From the NCBI RefSeq assembly GCF_000154285.1, contig NZ_DS483474.1, positions 248,001-312,000 on the forward strand: 64,000 nt of DNA, in the 5' to 3' direction. Position 1 is the stretch's first letter, and the number at the start of each line of letters is the position of its first letter. Under the pieces are notes generated by a model. The model was not told the DNA's origin, made no database searches, and saw only the letters and a list, made by a program, of their open reading frames with translations. Positions 40,373 through 47,173 of the stretch are shown here, piece after piece. Position numbers and translations under genes: made by a program. Source of the stretch: Amedibacillus dolichus DSM 3991. GTDB taxonomy: Bacteria; Bacillota_I; Bacilli_A; Erysipelotrichales; Erysipelotrichaceae.

Positions 40373-41722
40373 ATGAAAAAAATAAACAAAAGGGAAATAA
40401 TAATTATGATTTTTATATTTTTGATATTCCTATCTTTTTGTTATTCATTTGTTGGTAGAGAAGAGGAAACTATTGCGAATGAGCGATTTACAATGTTGAA
40501 TTATGATTTAATGATGCCTGATTTGCATTATGCAGAAGAGACTATGTCAGTAGAAGATAAATGGAAGATAGAAGAATCGTTAGCTGAATTTGATAAGATT
40601 TACAAGCAAGCGAATGAGGCGCTAACAAAAAGGAATTATAAAGAATATAATTTGAATGCGACAAAATTATGTTTACTACACTCGCTGTATGTTTATGAAG
40701 TGTATTATGATCATAAGGAAACGAGTAATGTAGATCATAAATTATATAATGAGCGAAAACAATTGGCAGATTCACTATTTAAAAAAGTAGGATTGAATCA
40801 AGATGATTACTATTTTTTAGTGAAAGATCCTTTATATCATGCACCTAGGATACTTATATGGGAATATCCCGGTATCGTTTTACGGGCATCTTTGTACTAT
40901 GAACAATATGAAAAAGGATTACCCCCTTTATCTTCCGGTTCTTCTGATAGTGCTTCTTCCATAATGCATATTTTGGAAGAATTGATGCCATATTTTTTGA
41001 TTCTTATAGTGGCGATAGTATGTCTTGATATGGTAGATAGTGATCGTAAACAAGGAACATTAAAGTTACTATTAACTCAACCAAAGAAACGCAGTGTATA
41101 TTTGATGAATAAGGGGAAGCTATATGCTAAAAAAACAGCACTGATTATCTTTATACCGCTTGCATTCACTTTTGCATGTATTGGTGTACAAAGTGGATTC
41201 GAAACGCTTTCTTCTCCTGTTCTTGCTTATGAGAGAGGTTTAACTAATTTAAAAAACATAGATAATCATATTGATGATATTCATTATGTATATGGCTATG
41301 ATAAAAAAATATATTTTTCAAATGTTTTAATTAATCCGGATAATCCTGAGGATATGGAACCGCAAGATGAAATGGAATTGATTCCTTTTTGGAAATTATT
41401 ATTAGCGGCATCGGTTTTTACAATACTATTGATATGCTTCTATGTTTCATTAAATTTGTTGTTGCATACATTGATATCGAATCCAATCATTGCAGCATTG
41501 AGCTTTTTGGTTATTGCGGGATTTGGTGTACTTATATCAATGCCTGAAAATGCATGTGCTGTTTATAATGTATTAAATCCGTTTACACATCGAAATCCAA
41601 TTTATGCAATTACAGGATATACAGGTTATTCTTTCTTGTTTGCGGCAATTGTTTTGTTGCTTGCCACATTTTTGGTTAATAGAATAAGTGTGTTTTTCTT
41701 CAAAATAAAGGATATATCGTGA
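40373..41722 (+). CDS. ABC-2-type transporter permease
   Basis: A 449-residue membrane protein with a first helix at about 8-28, a large outside domain (about 30-190) and at least five more helices after 205. A cytoplasmic DSDRKQGTLKLLLTQP segment near 225 is typical of ABC-2 permeases that couple to an ATPase. It resembles the permeases of peptide resistance or bacteriocin immunity systems. A GAGGAGGGGG site precedes the ATG. The next gene starts on its last codons (GTGA). Confidence 0.8.
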   Translation: MKKINKREIIIMIFIFLIFLSFCYSFVGREEETIANERFTMLNYDLMMPDLHYAEETMSVEDKWKIEESLAEFDKIYKQANEALTKRNYKEYNLNATKLCLLHSLYVYEVYYDHKETSNVDHKLYNERKQLADSLFKKVGLNQDDYYFLVKDPLYHAPRILIWEYPGIVLRASLYYEQYEKGLPPLSSGSSDSASSIMHILEELMPYFLILIVAIVCLDMVDSDRKQGTLKLLLTQPKKRSVYLMNKGKLYAKKTALIIFIPLAFTFACIGVQSGFETLSSPVLAYERGLTNLKNIDNHIDDIHYVYGYDKKIYFSNVLINPDNPEDMEPQDEMELIPFWKLLLAASVFTILLICFYVSLNLLLHTLISNPIIAALSFLVIAGFGVLISMPENACAVYNVLNPFTHRNPIYAITGYTGYSFLFAAIVLLLATFLVNRISVFFFKIKDIS

Positions 41723-43452
41723 AAAGGAAGATACGAACGATTTTCTATTGGCTTTCTTATGGAGTTAGAAATAGCAAAAGGTTTTTCTTCCTTAGTATCC
41801 TGGGATTATTGATACAGGTTTGTTTTAATATTTTTGATATTCTATTGTTAAAACTTGTTCTGGATAATTTATTACAGGGCAATTTTGGTAAAATCTTATT
41901 TTTTGTTGGGATATTTATGATGATTACTTTGACATTGCAATTTCTGTTAAATCAGATTATAAATAAAAGTATTCCAATAGAAAAGATCAAACTACAAAAA
42001 GGTTTACTCATGTGTATCTATGAAAAATCACTTGCCAGAAGCTTGAAAAGTTTAGATGATATGAGGGAATATAGTGATTTTTACTTTGTTTTAAATCAAG
42101 GTGTAACCAATGTTTTGAATCTGTATGATCATGTAATTTTACTATTACAACAGTTGCTTACTATGCTTTCATTGATAGGGTTGGTTATTGTTTATGATTT
42201 GTATATTTTAATAATTGCTGTTATTTGTGTCTGCATTCTTTCCTATTTAAATTATTGCTTGTCAAAGGAATACTATAATGCAAATGTAGAAATGGCAGAG
42301 GTAGAACGTGATTTAGATTACATTCATCGAGTCATGTATTTAAAAGAATATGCAAAAGAGTTAAGAATTTATAACTTATTTCTTAAGCTTAAAAAACGTT
42401 TTAATTATCAATATCAAGAAAAAGTAAAAGTTCAAGAAGATACAGGGAAAAAGCAGACAAGATTAAAGACAATGCAGCACTTTGTTCAAATATCTTTTCA
42501 GGGGATTGTAATATTGTTGTTGTCATTTAAAACGATAAGTAAGAAAATAGCAATCAGTGATTTTGTGGTTTTATTTAATAGCATATTGGAAATAGAAAAT
42601 CAGTTAGATGCTATGATACAGCTGATACCCAGAATCTTTGAAAATGAGTTATATTTGGAAAAAATAGATGAATTCCTATATGAAAAAGAAGCAATGATTT
42701 ATGGTAAAGGTAAAGCTGATATTGATAAGATAGTTTTAAAAGATGTATGTTTCAAATATACTACAGCGCATTTAGAGATTTTGCATGATATCAATATGAA
42801 GGTCGAACGGGGAAAAAAGATCGCGATTATCGGAAAGAACGGTGCCGGAAAAAGTACATTAGCAAAGATTTTATGTGGTCTATATACACCGGATTCAGGA
42901 GAGATAAGTGAAAGTCAATCTAGTTTGTTAGCAAATAGTTCTGTTGTCTTTCAAGACTTCTGTATTTATTCTATGAGCATTTTTGATAACATTTGCATAG
43001 AAGAAAGCGGAAAGCGAAGCAGTGATGAAATAAAAGTGTGGGAAGCATTGGAAATGGTTGGATTAGCAGATAAAATTCGTCAAATGCCTAAGAAATTAGA
43101 AACTATTATTGATTCGGAATATGATGAAGCAGGAGTTTTATTATCAGGAGGAGAATTGCAAAAAATTGCTATTGCAAGAGCTTTACTGAAAAAAGCATCT
43201 ATTTTGGTGCTTGATGAGCCGTCAGGCGCATTTGATGTTTTTTCACAAAATGAGTTTTATCATATTTTTGATGAAATAAGTAAAGATAAAATAGTAATTT
43301 TTATAACTCATAAATTGTCTTATTTGAAGTGTATGGATAATATATACGTGATAGATGACGGTTGTATTGTAGAAGAAGGAACACATGATGAGCTGCTTCG
43401 AAGCCAAGGGCTTTACAAAAAAATGTATTTAGCAGAAGGTGAACATAAATAA
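41719..43452 (+). CDS. ABC exporter, fused permease and ATPase, without peptidase domain
   Basis: A 577-residue half-exporter starting at GTG and overlapping the previous stop by four bases. Six membrane helices occupy about 1-290; the ATPase has Walker A GKNGAGKST near 372, signature LSGGELQKIAIARALL near 476 and Walker B ILVLDEPSGAFD near 494. The layout is that of lantibiotic and peptide exporters such as NisT/SpaT, which lack a C39 leader peptidase. The small peptide at 40072 is the obvious candidate cargo, by inference. Confidence 0.83.
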   Translation: MKRKIRTIFYWLSYGVRNSKRFFFLSILGLLIQVCFNIFDILLLKLVLDNLLQGNFGKILFFVGIFMMITLTLQFLLNQIINKSIPIEKIKLQKGLLMCIYEKSLARSLKSLDDMREYSDFYFVLNQGVTNVLNLYDHVILLLQQLLTMLSLIGLVIVYDLYILIIAVICVCILSYLNYCLSKEYYNANVEMAEVERDLDYIHRVMYLKEYAKELRIYNLFLKLKKRFNYQYQEKVKVQEDTGKKQTRLKTMQHFVQISFQGIVILLLSFKTISKKIAISDFVVLFNSILEIENQLDAMIQLIPRIFENELYLEKIDEFLYEKEAMIYGKGKADIDKIVLKDVCFKYTTAHLEILHDINMKVERGKKIAIIGKNGAGKSTLAKILCGLYTPDSGEISESQSSLLANSSVVFQDFCIYSMSIFDNICIEESGKRSSDEIKVWEALEMVGLADKIRQMPKKLETIIDSEYDEAGVLLSGGELQKIAIARALLKKASILVLDEPSGAFDVFSQNEFYHIFDEISKDKIVIFITHKLSYLKCMDNIYVIDDGCIVEEGTHDELLRSQGLYKKMYLAEGEHK

Positions 43453-43469
43453 AGGATAGGGAGGATATC

Positions 43470-44372
43470 ATGAAAACAATTGTGGAAGTAAATAATCTAA
43501 CAAAGTTTTACGGAAAAAATAAGGTGCTATCAAATGTTACTTTGAAGATACAAGAAAAAGAGATTGTAGGTTTAATTGGTCCCAATGGTGCTGGGAAATC
43601 AACACTTATGAAATGTTTGACAAGCTTGGTGTTTTTTCAAGAAGGGGAAATTAAGATTTGTGGATATGATATACAAAAGCAACGTGAACATGCGCTTTCC
43701 GTTCAATCCTCATTGATTGAAATGCCAGGAATGTATCCAAATATGTCAGGAGATGCAAATCTTACCTATTTTGCGAAACTCAGAGGCTGTAGTGAGGAGC
43801 AGTATCAATTTGTAAAGGAATTTACAGGACTTGGCGATGCTTTAAAAAAGAAAACAAAGGAATATTCTTTAGGAATGAAACAGCGTCTGGGTTTAGGAAT
43901 TGCGTTGTTGTCAGAGCCGAAATTTTTAATCCTGGACGAGCCGATGAACGGTTTAGATCCCGATGGTGTCATTTCTTTGCGTGAAAGCCTGAAATATCTT
44001 GTTGAGGAAAAGAAAATGAGCATTCTTATTTCTTCCCATCAATTGGGAGAAATTGAAAAAATGGCATCAAGAGTTATTTTCTTGAACCATGGGGAAGTGG
44101 CAGATTATAATGAAGCACTTGTGCAAAAGAAGTTTTATATCTTAGAATCAAAGCAAATAGATGCACTTATTCAAACTTTGGCAAATAGGGAAACAAGCTG
44201 TCAATATCAGAAGATAGGAGAGTATCAAATACTATTGGAAACAAGTGGACTGAATGTTCTGCAGAAAGTGTTGGTTGAAGCGGAAAAGCAAGGTATAGAG
44301 ATTAGTGATATTTATAAAAAGACTGCAAATATCGAAGATATTTACCGTCAGATTTTTAAAGGAGAAGCATGA
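43470..44372 (+). CDS. ABC transporter ATPase, BcrA/LanF-like
   Basis: A 300-residue ATPase subunit: Walker A GPNGAGKST near 38-46, signature YSLGMKQRLGLGIALL near 130 and Walker B FLILDEPMNGLDP near 152. The C-terminal 80 residues are the extra domain common in the BcrA/LanF immunity group. A strong AGGGAGG site precedes it. It pairs with the permease that overlaps its stop and may also serve the permease at 40373. Proteins of this type often protect producers from their own peptides. Confidence 0.85.
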   Translation: MKTIVEVNNLTKFYGKNKVLSNVTLKIQEKEIVGLIGPNGAGKSTLMKCLTSLVFFQEGEIKICGYDIQKQREHALSVQSSLIEMPGMYPNMSGDANLTYFAKLRGCSEEQYQFVKEFTGLGDALKKKTKEYSLGMKQRLGLGIALLSEPKFLILDEPMNGLDPDGVISLRESLKYLVEEKKMSILISSHQLGEIEKMASRVIFLNHGEVADYNEALVQKKFYILESKQIDALIQTLANRETSCQYQKIGEYQILLETSGLNVLQKVLVEAEKQGIEISDIYKKTANIEDIYRQIFKGEA

Positions 44373-45475
44373 TGAGATATTTTTTTATTGAGCTAAAAAG
44401 ACATCTTGCGAGTAAATTTACTATCATCATTTTTTTAAGTATGACGATCTTTCTTCTTTTGCATATTCCTTTCCATATGTGGAAAGCACAGAAATATATT
44501 GAGAATACAAGAATAAAGATATATACTATTGCCGATAGTGCAGAATCCTATAAAGAAATGACACAAACTAAGGAAGATCGCACCTTTTATCATGAAGAAT
44601 TTGAAGATTATTACTTTCTCTATCAGGTTTATAATTCCAAGCAGTATGAACAAAATGTTTCAATTAAGACAAATACAGAATATGATATATTAAAGAGAGA
44701 GCTCTTGCGCGCCGAACAAGGGAAGGATTTACTTTCACCCAAAACAGTGAAAGAAATTAAACAAGAAATGAAATGGTATGAAGCTTTAGAAGCAAAAAAA
44801 TATATTCCTTATGCGACACCTTATGATAATCAAACCTTCAATTTCTTATATTTAATTATGAATGATACGATTTCAGTCATTATTCTTCTTCTTTTAGCAT
44901 TAAGTATAATTCCGATGATCGTTTGCTCGGACTTTGAGGTACACACATATAAATATGTATATACGAGTAAAGCATCAAGAGCAACTATCATGCTTACCAA
45001 GTTTGGAATTTCTGTGATTCTTCCACTTGCCATGCTTTTATTATCGGTTGGAATAACATCGCTTGTTACGGGAGCAGTCTTTGGCTTAGGAATAAGTGAT
45101 TACCCATATTTATTGAGCAATGGTATGCTTATAACAGCAGATAGTTATTTATTTGAGAGTATCAAGCTATTCGCAGCTGTCTTATTTTTCTTTGCCTCTA
45201 TTCTTTTTGCATTATCCTATATATGTAAAAAGCAGGTAGATGCGATTACTTATTTTAGTTTATTTATCGCAATAACCTATGTCTTTCTAACCTATCGTAT
45301 TACTTTGAGCTTTTTTCGCTATATTCCGATTTTTTATCTGAATGTAGAAAATATTTTGACAAATGCATTGGGTATTTCAATTCATGAAGCAATTATTTAT
45401 TGCATTAGTTTTGGAATGATAGTAGTTTTGATGGTTGTGTTATATTATCGAAAAAAGGATTTGCTTGTTGAATAG
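44369..45475 (+). CDS. ABC-2-type transporter permease, second
   Basis: A 368-residue membrane protein with a first helix near 16-36, an outside domain to about 165 and five more helices. IVCSDFEVHTYKYVYTSKASR near 189 is the cytoplasmic coupling stretch. Its layout is like that of the first permease of the cluster, so the two may pair with the single ATPase. The ATG overlaps the ATPase stop by four bases. Confidence 0.8.
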   Translation: MMRYFFIELKRHLASKFTIIIFLSMTIFLLLHIPFHMWKAQKYIENTRIKIYTIADSAESYKEMTQTKEDRTFYHEEFEDYYFLYQVYNSKQYEQNVSIKTNTEYDILKRELLRAEQGKDLLSPKTVKEIKQEMKWYEALEAKKYIPYATPYDNQTFNFLYLIMNDTISVIILLLLALSIIPMIVCSDFEVHTYKYVYTSKASRATIMLTKFGISVILPLAMLLLSVGITSLVTGAVFGLGISDYPYLLSNGMLITADSYLFESIKLFAAVLFFFASILFALSYICKKQVDAITYFSLFIAITYVFLTYRITLSFFRYIPIFYLNVENILTNALGISIHEAIIYCISFGMIVVLMVVLYYRKKDLLVE

Positions 45476-45780: not shown

Positions 45781-46467
45781 ATGCTGCGAGTGGCAATTCT
45801 GGAAACCGAAGAAGTTGCAAAAGACATTATGTTTGAATTAGCATCTGCTCATCAGAAACAGGAATTTGCTTTTCATGCATTTAGAAAAATATCAGAGCTG
45901 GCAACTGCGCAGGAGGAAAAAGAATTTCATATCATTGTTTTTCATCAAAAATTCGAGATTCCGCGTATTACACAATCCTTTGTTTTAAACAACCCTCAGC
46001 GCATTGTTATATATATGAAAGAGGAGCTGACGGAATGTGAGAAAATCATTCTGCCATTTGCTCGTATTTTTTATCTTAATAAGCATCATATAAAGGAAGA
46101 AATTGCACGTATTATGCCACATGTTGAACGTATGCTTAGTAATCAAGAGGAGTATATGTTTGCCTATAACAATGTGGAAATACCACTGCGCATTGCGGAT
46201 ATTCTTTATATTGAAAAGGAGGATAAGTTTTTGGTTTATCATACCAAGCGAGGAGAGTTTCGTGAACGAAAGAGCATGAAGGTGGCAAGTCATGATTTTG
46301 CGAAAAATAACTTTCTATGGATTCATGCCAGCTATCTTGTGAATATGCAGCATATTACGCAAATGACACCTGATACGGTATATTTACAAAAGATAAAATT
46401 ACCGATTGCAAGAGCGAGAAAAAACGAGGTAAGTGAACAAATACGGAAGTATGTACGCCTGAGATAA
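45781..46467 (+). CDS. LytTR-domain transcriptional regulator
   Basis: A 228-residue regulator. The last 100 residues are a LytTR DNA-binding domain (IADILYIEKEDKFLVYHT near 139, FLWIHASYLVNMQHI near 178, LPIARARKNEV near 208). The first 115 residues look like a receiver fold that lacks a clear phosphoacceptor Asp, so activity may not need a kinase; no histidine kinase is near. I choose the ATG at 45781 after CAGGAG; the frame is open from 45718 but crosses a TATAAT at 45730. LytTR regulators often control peptide bacteriocin or quorum genes, like those just upstream. Confidence 0.82.
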   Translation: MLRVAILETEEVAKDIMFELASAHQKQEFAFHAFRKISELATAQEEKEFHIIVFHQKFEIPRITQSFVLNNPQRIVIYMKEELTECEKIILPFARIFYLNKHHIKEEIARIMPHVERMLSNQEEYMFAYNNVEIPLRIADILYIEKEDKFLVYHTKRGEFRERKSMKVASHDFAKNNFLWIHASYLVNMQHITQMTPDTVYLQKIKLPIARARKNEVSEQIRKYVRLR

Positions 46468-46474
46468 CCGATTT

Positions 46475-46499
46475 TTCCAAAAATATACCAATTCTTCCA
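46475..46499 (+). promoter_or_regulatory. Direct repeat upstream of the ncRNA promoter, possible LytTR site
   Basis: TTCCA recurs at 46475-46479 and 46495-46499, exactly 20 bases apart, just before the -35 box. LytTR regulators bind direct repeats about two helix turns apart. The match to a known consensus is not clear. Confidence 0.35.
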
Positions 46500-46505
46500 T
46501 AACGC

Positions 46506-46533
46506 TTTACAATTTCAAATGATGGACTATAAT
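46506..46533 (+). promoter_or_regulatory. Promoter of the large noncoding RNA
   Basis: TTTACA (46506-46511), a 16-base spacer and TATAAT (46528-46533) make a good sigma-A promoter with no protein gene downstream for almost one kilobase. Confidence 0.7.
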
Positions 46534-46539
46534 AAAGGT

Positions 46540-47173
46540 GTAAAGAAAGAGAGCGGTGAGAAAATGGGAAGTTTTAGAGGCTAGATTATTTCATTCATAC
46601 GTGAAAGCATTTCTTGTAAAGGAATGAATGAAAGGGAAATAATCATAATAATAGCGGACCATAAAACATACGGTGTGGAAACCATCGAAGTGAAGATGCC
46701 TAAAGAAAAGTCGGTGAAAGAGGCTCATGTATTAGGAAGCAAAGCCATATCGATCAAATGATGAAAATACATCTAGCGACTGTTGGGAAAGACAAAAGGA
46801 AGTGATATCTGGTGAGGAATTGCTAACTAGGTAAAGGAAAGACAGAAGCTAATGTTGAAAGTCATTCGTATAACCGATGAAAAAACAAAATACAAGTAAT
46901 CGAAAAATACAAAATATTAGAAATACATACAATCGGTTATCATAGAGATGAGTTCATAGATATTTCAGATGAAGAAAGGAAAATAGGCGAGTGAACCTGT
47001 AACATACAAATGTAAAAAAATTGTCTGAAATAATCGTCATAAGATAGATAAAGGTATCCGATGTATTGCAATCCGATGAGATATCGCATGCAAAGATAAG
47101 GATATTGTTGGTAAAATTGAATAGCATAAACAAGCGAGGCAGAAATGGATTAGACAAATGCCTCGCTATTTTT
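46540..47173 (+). ncRNA. Candidate large structured noncoding RNA, about 630 nt
   Basis: No reading frame of useful size exists here, yet the interval has its own promoter and terminator and several exact long stems. One pairs 46584-46598 with 46624-46633 plus 46640-46644 (15 pairs, six-base bulge). Others are 46870-46878 with 46932-46940 (9 pairs), 46961-46969 with 47024-47032 (9 pairs, enclosing an ACAT/ATGT hairpin), and 47066-47070 with 47089-47093 enclosing CGAT/ATCG. Purine-rich linkers with many GAAA and GGAAAG stretches separate them. Size and autonomy recall large bacterial RNAs such as ROOL or OLE, but I cannot assign a class. Confidence 0.6.
47133..47173 (+). terminator. Terminator of the large noncoding RNA
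   Basis: AGCGAGGCA (47133-47141) and TGCCTCGCT (47159-47167) form a perfect nine-pair GC-rich stem, followed by ATTTTT. Confidence 0.88.

Follow-up and report, generated by a model that had tools for sequence, protein, structure and literature searches.

Among effector RNAs driven by LytTR regulators, RNAIII and FasX are the textbook cases, and both are known from pathogens. FasX, whose regulator FasA is of the LytTR type, is about 200 nt long and shorter than the RNA of about 630 nt described here; RNAIII carries an internal ORF of 26 codons, compared with the mini-ORF of 3-6 codons found here. AgrA binds two direct repeats directly upstream of its promoters, and the RNAIII promoter is activated by this LytTR protein via direct repeats just upstream of it (PMC4227749). 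In the fasBCAX system of Streptococcus pyogenes, the FasX gene adjoins the gene of FasA, its controlling regulator, and the FasX RNA is the effector (PMC12675982).

The locus considered here lies in a stretch of 64,000 nucleotides from Amedibacillus dolichus DSM 3991, the whole of which is called the window. It resembles RNAIII/AgrA in that a large structured RNA with an internal ORF adjoins a regulator gene and in having comparable repeats upstream of the RNA promoter, and it resembles FasX/FasA in the placement of an RNA gene beside a regulator gene. It differs from RNAIII/AgrA in several respects: neither sequence nor Rfam gives a match, agrBDC-type genes were not recognised beside the RNA, the regulator is without the phospho-acceptor Asp, no C-rich hairpin loops were seen in the RNA, and the promoter spacer is 16 nt as against 20 nt. 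It differs from FasX/FasA in that no kinase genes were recognised near the RNA, and here too there is no sequence match. By analogy, the circuit logic would be that of these two systems, with no kinship in sequence. The explanation that we favour, and consider probable, is a free-standing regulatory RNA of about 630 nt that is activated by, and acts as the effector of, the orphan LytTR regulator encoded immediately upstream; its transcription, activation and targets we infer. The RNA family is new. Its kind, the LytTR-driven effector RNA, is already known, and within that kind the orphan regulator and the unusual 5′ module set it apart.

The RNA gene in the window

On the forward strand, a strong promoter, some 630 nt free of protein genes and an intrinsic terminator lie between the stop codon of the LytTR gene (46467) and rsmG (47515) (Table 1). 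An earlier note on this DNA had proposed a large free-standing structured RNA beside the LytTR gene, which is supported by the present analysis; with no Rfam match, it is best termed a new class. The promoter proposed in that note is present (11/12), as is the terminator, which a terminator scan had missed, its 17-nt loop exceeding the loop limit of the scan.

Five perfect stems of at least nine pairs occur in the RNA interval (46584-46592/46636-46644, 46589-46598/46624-46633, 46870-46878/46932-46940, 46961-46969/47024-47032 and the terminator). As 0.09 were expected and none of 200 dinucleotide shuffles reached five, the argument that such long stems are improbable by chance is borne out. Both 9-pair stems in the 3′ part, at 46870/46932 and 46961/47024, were found perfect as originally drawn, and the nested hairpin at 47066-47093 is present in both the minimum free energy (MFE) and the centroid folds. 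The 15-pair bulged stem drawn at 46584-46644 consists of two overlapping helices and not of a single clean 15-bp stem. For the entire RNA interval, the MFE is -125.6 kcal/mol (z = -3.1), a value as low as which was reached by none of 20 shuffles. The RNA is poor in C, with no obvious C-rich seed of the RNAIII sort.

The statement that the interval contains no usable ORF holds for protein genes, but a conserved 6-codon ORF with a ribosome site (46564-46584) had been overlooked. Apart from this mini-ORF, none on the RNA strand is longer than the one of 45 aa at 46624-46761. Short ORF-like stretches of this sort are what could speak for a decayed protein gene or a chance A-rich spacer, a reading that is hardly credible: it is refuted by compensatory changes in three helices and by the conserved promoter and ends, and homologues with the terminator at the expected place contain no ORF of more than 56 aa.

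Table 1. Features of the RNA locus, in positions of the window
Feature	Position	Strand	Basis or remark
LytTR regulator gene	45781..46467	+	ORF called from 45718; homologues start at Met 45781
LytTR-type direct repeats ACCGATTTTTCC (46467-46478) and ACCAATTCTTCC (46487-46498), 20 bp apart	46467..46498	+	Sequence
Promoter, -35 TTTACA, 16 nt, -10 TATAAT; start inferred near 46540	46506..46533	+	Sequence; kept in homologues
Structured RNA gene, about 634 nt	46540..47173	+	Fold, relatives, covariation, stem counts
Most conserved element AGAGAGCGGTGAGAAAATGGGA, ribosome-binding site and start codon	46548..46569	+	Homologue comparison
Mini-ORF ATGGGAAGTTTTAGAGGCTAG (MGSFRG, stop)	46564..46584	+	Stop overlaps 5′ strand of P1
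P1: outer GCTA 46580-46583/TAGC 46652-46655; inner GATTATTTC 46584-46592/GAAATAATC 46636-46644	46580..46655	+	Covariation
P2: CGGTG 46671-46675/CATCG 46683-46687	46671..46687	+	Covariation
P3: CCTA 46699-46702/TAGG 46733-46736	46699..46736	+	Covariation
Long-range stem ATAACCGAT/ATCGGTTAT, variable 3′ domain	46870..46940	+	Stem count; other members have different stems at similar spacing
Long-range stem TATTTCAGA/TCTGAAATA, variable 3′ domain	46961..47032	+	Stem count
Conserved 3′ element AATTGAATA, just before the terminator	47115..47123	+	Same or close variant in most members
Intrinsic terminator, AGCGAGGCA/TGCCTCGCT then ATTTTT	47133..47173	+	Sequence and stem count

No family of Rfam 15 matches the RNA interval, 13 homologous loci were negative at gathering thresholds, and the Rfam RNAIII model gave no match. 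The only Rfam match in the window is a purine riboswitch at 498-599 (RF00167, 65 bits). ROOL, OLE, GOLLD and raiA are, like the RNA here, large free-standing bacterial RNAs with several long helices, and the earlier note had considered kinship with them. Size and free-standing nature are all that would favour a divergent member of these families or of another known large RNA, which we regard as very improbable: the covariance models of the four families found no match in the window even at E ≤ 10, and the RNA here has another 5′ module, with a ribosome site and mini-ORF, and a regulator as partner. No description of the RNA family was found in the literature, where unnamed candidates in the supplements of metagenomic screens could overlap with it; the main texts of PMC11109978, PMC8040213 and PMC6429828 do not mention the RNA, which might coincide in part with one of the 3,161 candidates of PMC8040213.

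Relatives, conserved helices and the 5′ module

Homologues of the RNA, recognised by motif or covariance model, are present in 27 Erysipelotrichaceae genomes from 16 genera. A DNA search of related genomes gave matches in several genera of the same family, mainly over AAAGAGAGCGGTGAGAAAATGGGA, and a search with the AAAGAGAGCGGTGAGAAAATGGGA motif gave 15 true genomes. Scanning about 85,000 species with this 5′ motif brought up Absicoccus porci, Holdemanella biformis, H. porci, Merdibacter massiliensis, Longicatena caecimuris and uncultured Erysipelotrichales, and the DNA downstream of LytTR orthologues contained many further RNAs with AGAGAGCGGTGGGAAGATGACAATA. Outside the family no match was obtained (316 genomes of the order were searched), and phage and plasmid DNA gave only a 34-nt chance match. 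Motif matches in Selenomonadaceae, Listeria, Acidobacteria, Nitrospira, Lachnospiraceae, other Clostridia and two viral contigs were rejected as ordinary ribosome sites or unrelated sequence. Also set aside were a chance match (L008), a locus that has only the promoter in common (L006), and five weak model matches that on inspection were coding starts or unrelated sequence (L133, L135, L138, L139 and L143).

Two sequence types can be told apart: type A, to which the window belongs, has an MGxxx(R/G) ORF and a long P1, and type B has a mostly MTI- ORF and a short P1. Helices P1, P2 and P3 and the order of elements are common to both. Built from type B members alone, a covariance model recovers the window locus and nothing else in the genome of the window (E 0.0027, a rough value); elsewhere it finds two further type A loci as well as second copies in Merdibacter-type genomes. 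These genomes (L083, L084 and L108) have two RNA copies each, every copy with its own LytTR-type repeat; the second is a shorter variant of about 240 nt with a 12-codon ORF, and in Merdibacter massiliensis the copies (L033 and L108) stand on either side of an asparaginase gene. A distant relative with the P2/P3 part (CTATGGAGCGAAGCCTCCAAAAGTCACGCCGATC...GATCGGAA) occurs in two genomes (L137 and L140, in G234 and G235) at a distance from the LytTR gene; it is flanked by a MATE-like transporter gene and a GntR-type gene and has no obvious LytTR repeat. At three further loci (L091, L099 and L101) the LytTR gene is followed by a good repeat-plus-promoter and then by a non-coding stretch barely similar to types A and B; these stretches are probably further diverged members.

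The genes that follow the RNA bear on whether it might be a cis-acting leader or attenuator of the downstream gene, in the window rsmG. It is rsmG that follows the RNA in the window, as it does in L023 and behind the second Merdibacter copy, but 340 nt separate it from the terminator that ends the RNA, and what follows in other members is an unrelated gene (YggS family, ggt, HAD phosphatase, phosphoesterase) or one on the opposite strand, so that a leader function is unlikely in the extreme.

The first stem, for which the earlier note had suggested a covariation check across homologous regions, covaries, as do P2 and P3. Across 21 distinct members, 98.1% of the cells of P1-P3 are paired compared with 77.2% in shuffles, both sides have changed at 13 of the 15 pairs, and the covariation score is 0.737 against 0.309 (0/500 shuffles); because the arms were picked by eye, which favours structure, and the sequences are related, these shuffle counts overstate the significance. 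The signal is lost when the partners are slid by one column. Pairing between a left arm and its own right arm amounts to 97-99%, compared with 72-78% for the right arms of other species, and a plain MAFFT alignment also yields P2 and P3, with five of nine pairs doubly changed. The apical part of P1, CGTGAAAG...TCTTGTA.AGG, is common to the window and its type A relatives. GGA loops of the CsrA type occur in some P2 loops and were discarded as unconserved. The 3′ domain evolves fast and cannot be aligned across members; in the window it holds the stems at 46870/46932 and 46961/47024, and long stems in the 3′ domains of the members number 21, against 7.4 by chance. In a few type B members a 3′ stem appears to covary (L095 TTCTGTATAA, L098 TTCCATATAA and L100 CTGCATAA).

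The 5′ consensus across members, AGAGAGCGGTG(A/G)GAANATG, is a ribosome site that opens an ORF of 3-6 codons. An in-frame stop falls within six codons in 24 of 26 distinct homologues, compared with 10 and 6 for the other frames, and the mini-ORF is probably translated. The hexapeptide was rejected as a conserved signal: only the first two to three codons are kept, at the nucleotide level, and conservation of the peptide ends after M-G or M-T-I. P1 begins 31-35 nt past the first base of the 5′ motif and, in 22 of 25 members, 16-17 nt past the A of the start codon, regardless of ORF length, which would place it at the front edge of an initiating ribosome. The P1 of type A members includes the stop codon; TAG, TAA and TGA all occur, with pairing partners changed to match. 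The mini-ORF may serve the stability of the RNA or a switch in P1.

These observations also bear on another reading of the 5′ module, as a translation-dependent switch in which a ribosome on, or stalled on, the mini-ORF holds P1 either open or shut, such that the RNA reads translation status or a small molecule; the ribosome, and not base pairing to targets, would then be the working part. The fixed start of P1 at any ORF length, the type A stop codon inside the P1 strand with its matching partners, the persistent shortness of the ORF and the position of the SD-AUG block as the best-conserved part all favour it, but the lack of peptide conservation past the first residues argues against a stalling peptide, and the 3′ domain and terminator lie hundreds of nucleotides away with no visible expression platform. 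We consider such a switch possible but rather unlikely.

The regulator and the RNA promoter

The regulator consists of a receiver-like N-terminal domain and a LytTR DNA-binding domain (Pfam LytTR 5e-14), and the best Foldseek matches of its AlphaFold model (pLDDT 83) are ComE (4cbv) and the DNA-bound LytTR domain of AgrA. In the window regulator, alignment places a His at the position of the phospho-acceptor Asp, which is retained only in some distant homologues; phosphorylation control at this receiver-like domain is therefore unlikely in the window species. No kinase or peptide signal genes were recognised near the RNA, whose neighbours are ABC transporter, rsmG and parAB-type genes in the window and murA and other housekeeping genes at homologous loci. 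Genes for an ABC exporter, an ABC ATPase and an ABC-2 permease (41719-45475) precede the LytTR gene in the window, and in several relatives it is preceded by murA.

A single-copy LytTR orthologue was found by protein search in 44 of 268 family genomes. All 27 genomes with the RNA are among these 44, and none of the 224 LytTR-negative genomes has it (Fisher 8e-26, a figure that overstates the independent evidence because the genomes are related); motif matches in two LytTR-negative genomes (L012 and L025) were chance, lying inside coding sequence and without any other feature. About 12 LytTR-positive genomes contain no recognisable RNA, so the regulator can also occur on its own. At the RNA loci checked, a LytTR homologue lies upstream on the same strand, and the RNA usually begins 100-150 bp past the regulator gene. 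In several genomes one or more genes intervene, and the promoter repeats remain with the RNA; at five loci of one genus (L013, L014, L015, L016 and L017) the intervening gene is an L-cysteine desulfidase/YhaM-like gene.

The earlier note had treated the LytTR gene as a mere landmark, but it is the key to the locus: throughout the family the RNA is found together with the regulator gene, and its promoter has a LytTR-type repeat (46467-46498) that had been overlooked. These direct repeats, read from the sequence, lie about two helical turns apart upstream of the promoter, and the pair in the window is the sole zero-mismatch copy in its genome. In 32 homologous promoters, whose repeat pairs were scored without reference to the -10 box, the spacing of the pair is mostly 20-21 bp, and the distance from the end of the best-scoring repeat to the -10 box is exactly 29 nt in 24 and 30 nt in three more, including promoters whose RNA is separated from the LytTR gene. 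For some promoters the score of the repeat does not by itself stand out from shuffles, and only the constant position is telling. This geometry is that expected for a LytTR activator.

Box-like sites are also found near other genes in the genome of the window, so the regulator may have several targets, the RNA among them. A small lipoprotein gene (L115 1501-2140, in G000:C12), with a weaker LytTR-type repeat at the same spacing to the -35 box, is a candidate second target, and another box-like site adjoins an AI-2E-transporter-like gene, assigned by eye (L114). A search for a shared LytTR regulon gave few further box matches in relatives and no common target.

Proposed mode of action and its meaning

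In the explanation that we favour, the LytTR protein would bind the pair of direct repeats that closely precedes the -35 box and activate transcription of the RNA, as the site, its geometry and the co-inheritance of regulator and RNA suggest. The transcript would present a constant 5′ module, made up of the ribosome site, the mini-ORF, P1 at the front edge of the ribosome and then P2 and P3, joined to a fast-changing 3′ domain that closes with AATTGAATA and the terminator. Loading of ribosomes on the mini-ORF could protect the 5′ end of the RNA or toggle P1. That the RNA most likely acts in trans, on mRNAs and/or the translation machinery, we infer from its terminator, from the change of downstream genes between members and by analogy with RNAIII (AgrA) and FasX (FasA). 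A more tentative proposal, which may well prove wrong, combines both halves in a ribosome-docked regulator: the ribosome site, the minimal ORF and the edge hairpin would park or cycle ribosomes, and the 3′ domain would regulate or sense, all under one orphan LytTR switch. If true, this architecture would be new among bacterial regulatory RNAs.

In Staphylococcus virulence is run by such an RNA, and the present one looks like its counterpart in a commensal. If it is indeed wired to LytTR, a third unrelated RNA, present in common gut commensals (Holdemanella, Longicatena, Absicoccus and Merdibacter), would have come under such a regulator, and the circuit would be one that arises repeatedly. Its carriers are cultivable, which opens the circuit to testing, and the 5′ module makes directly testable why regulatory RNAs have tiny translated ORFs.
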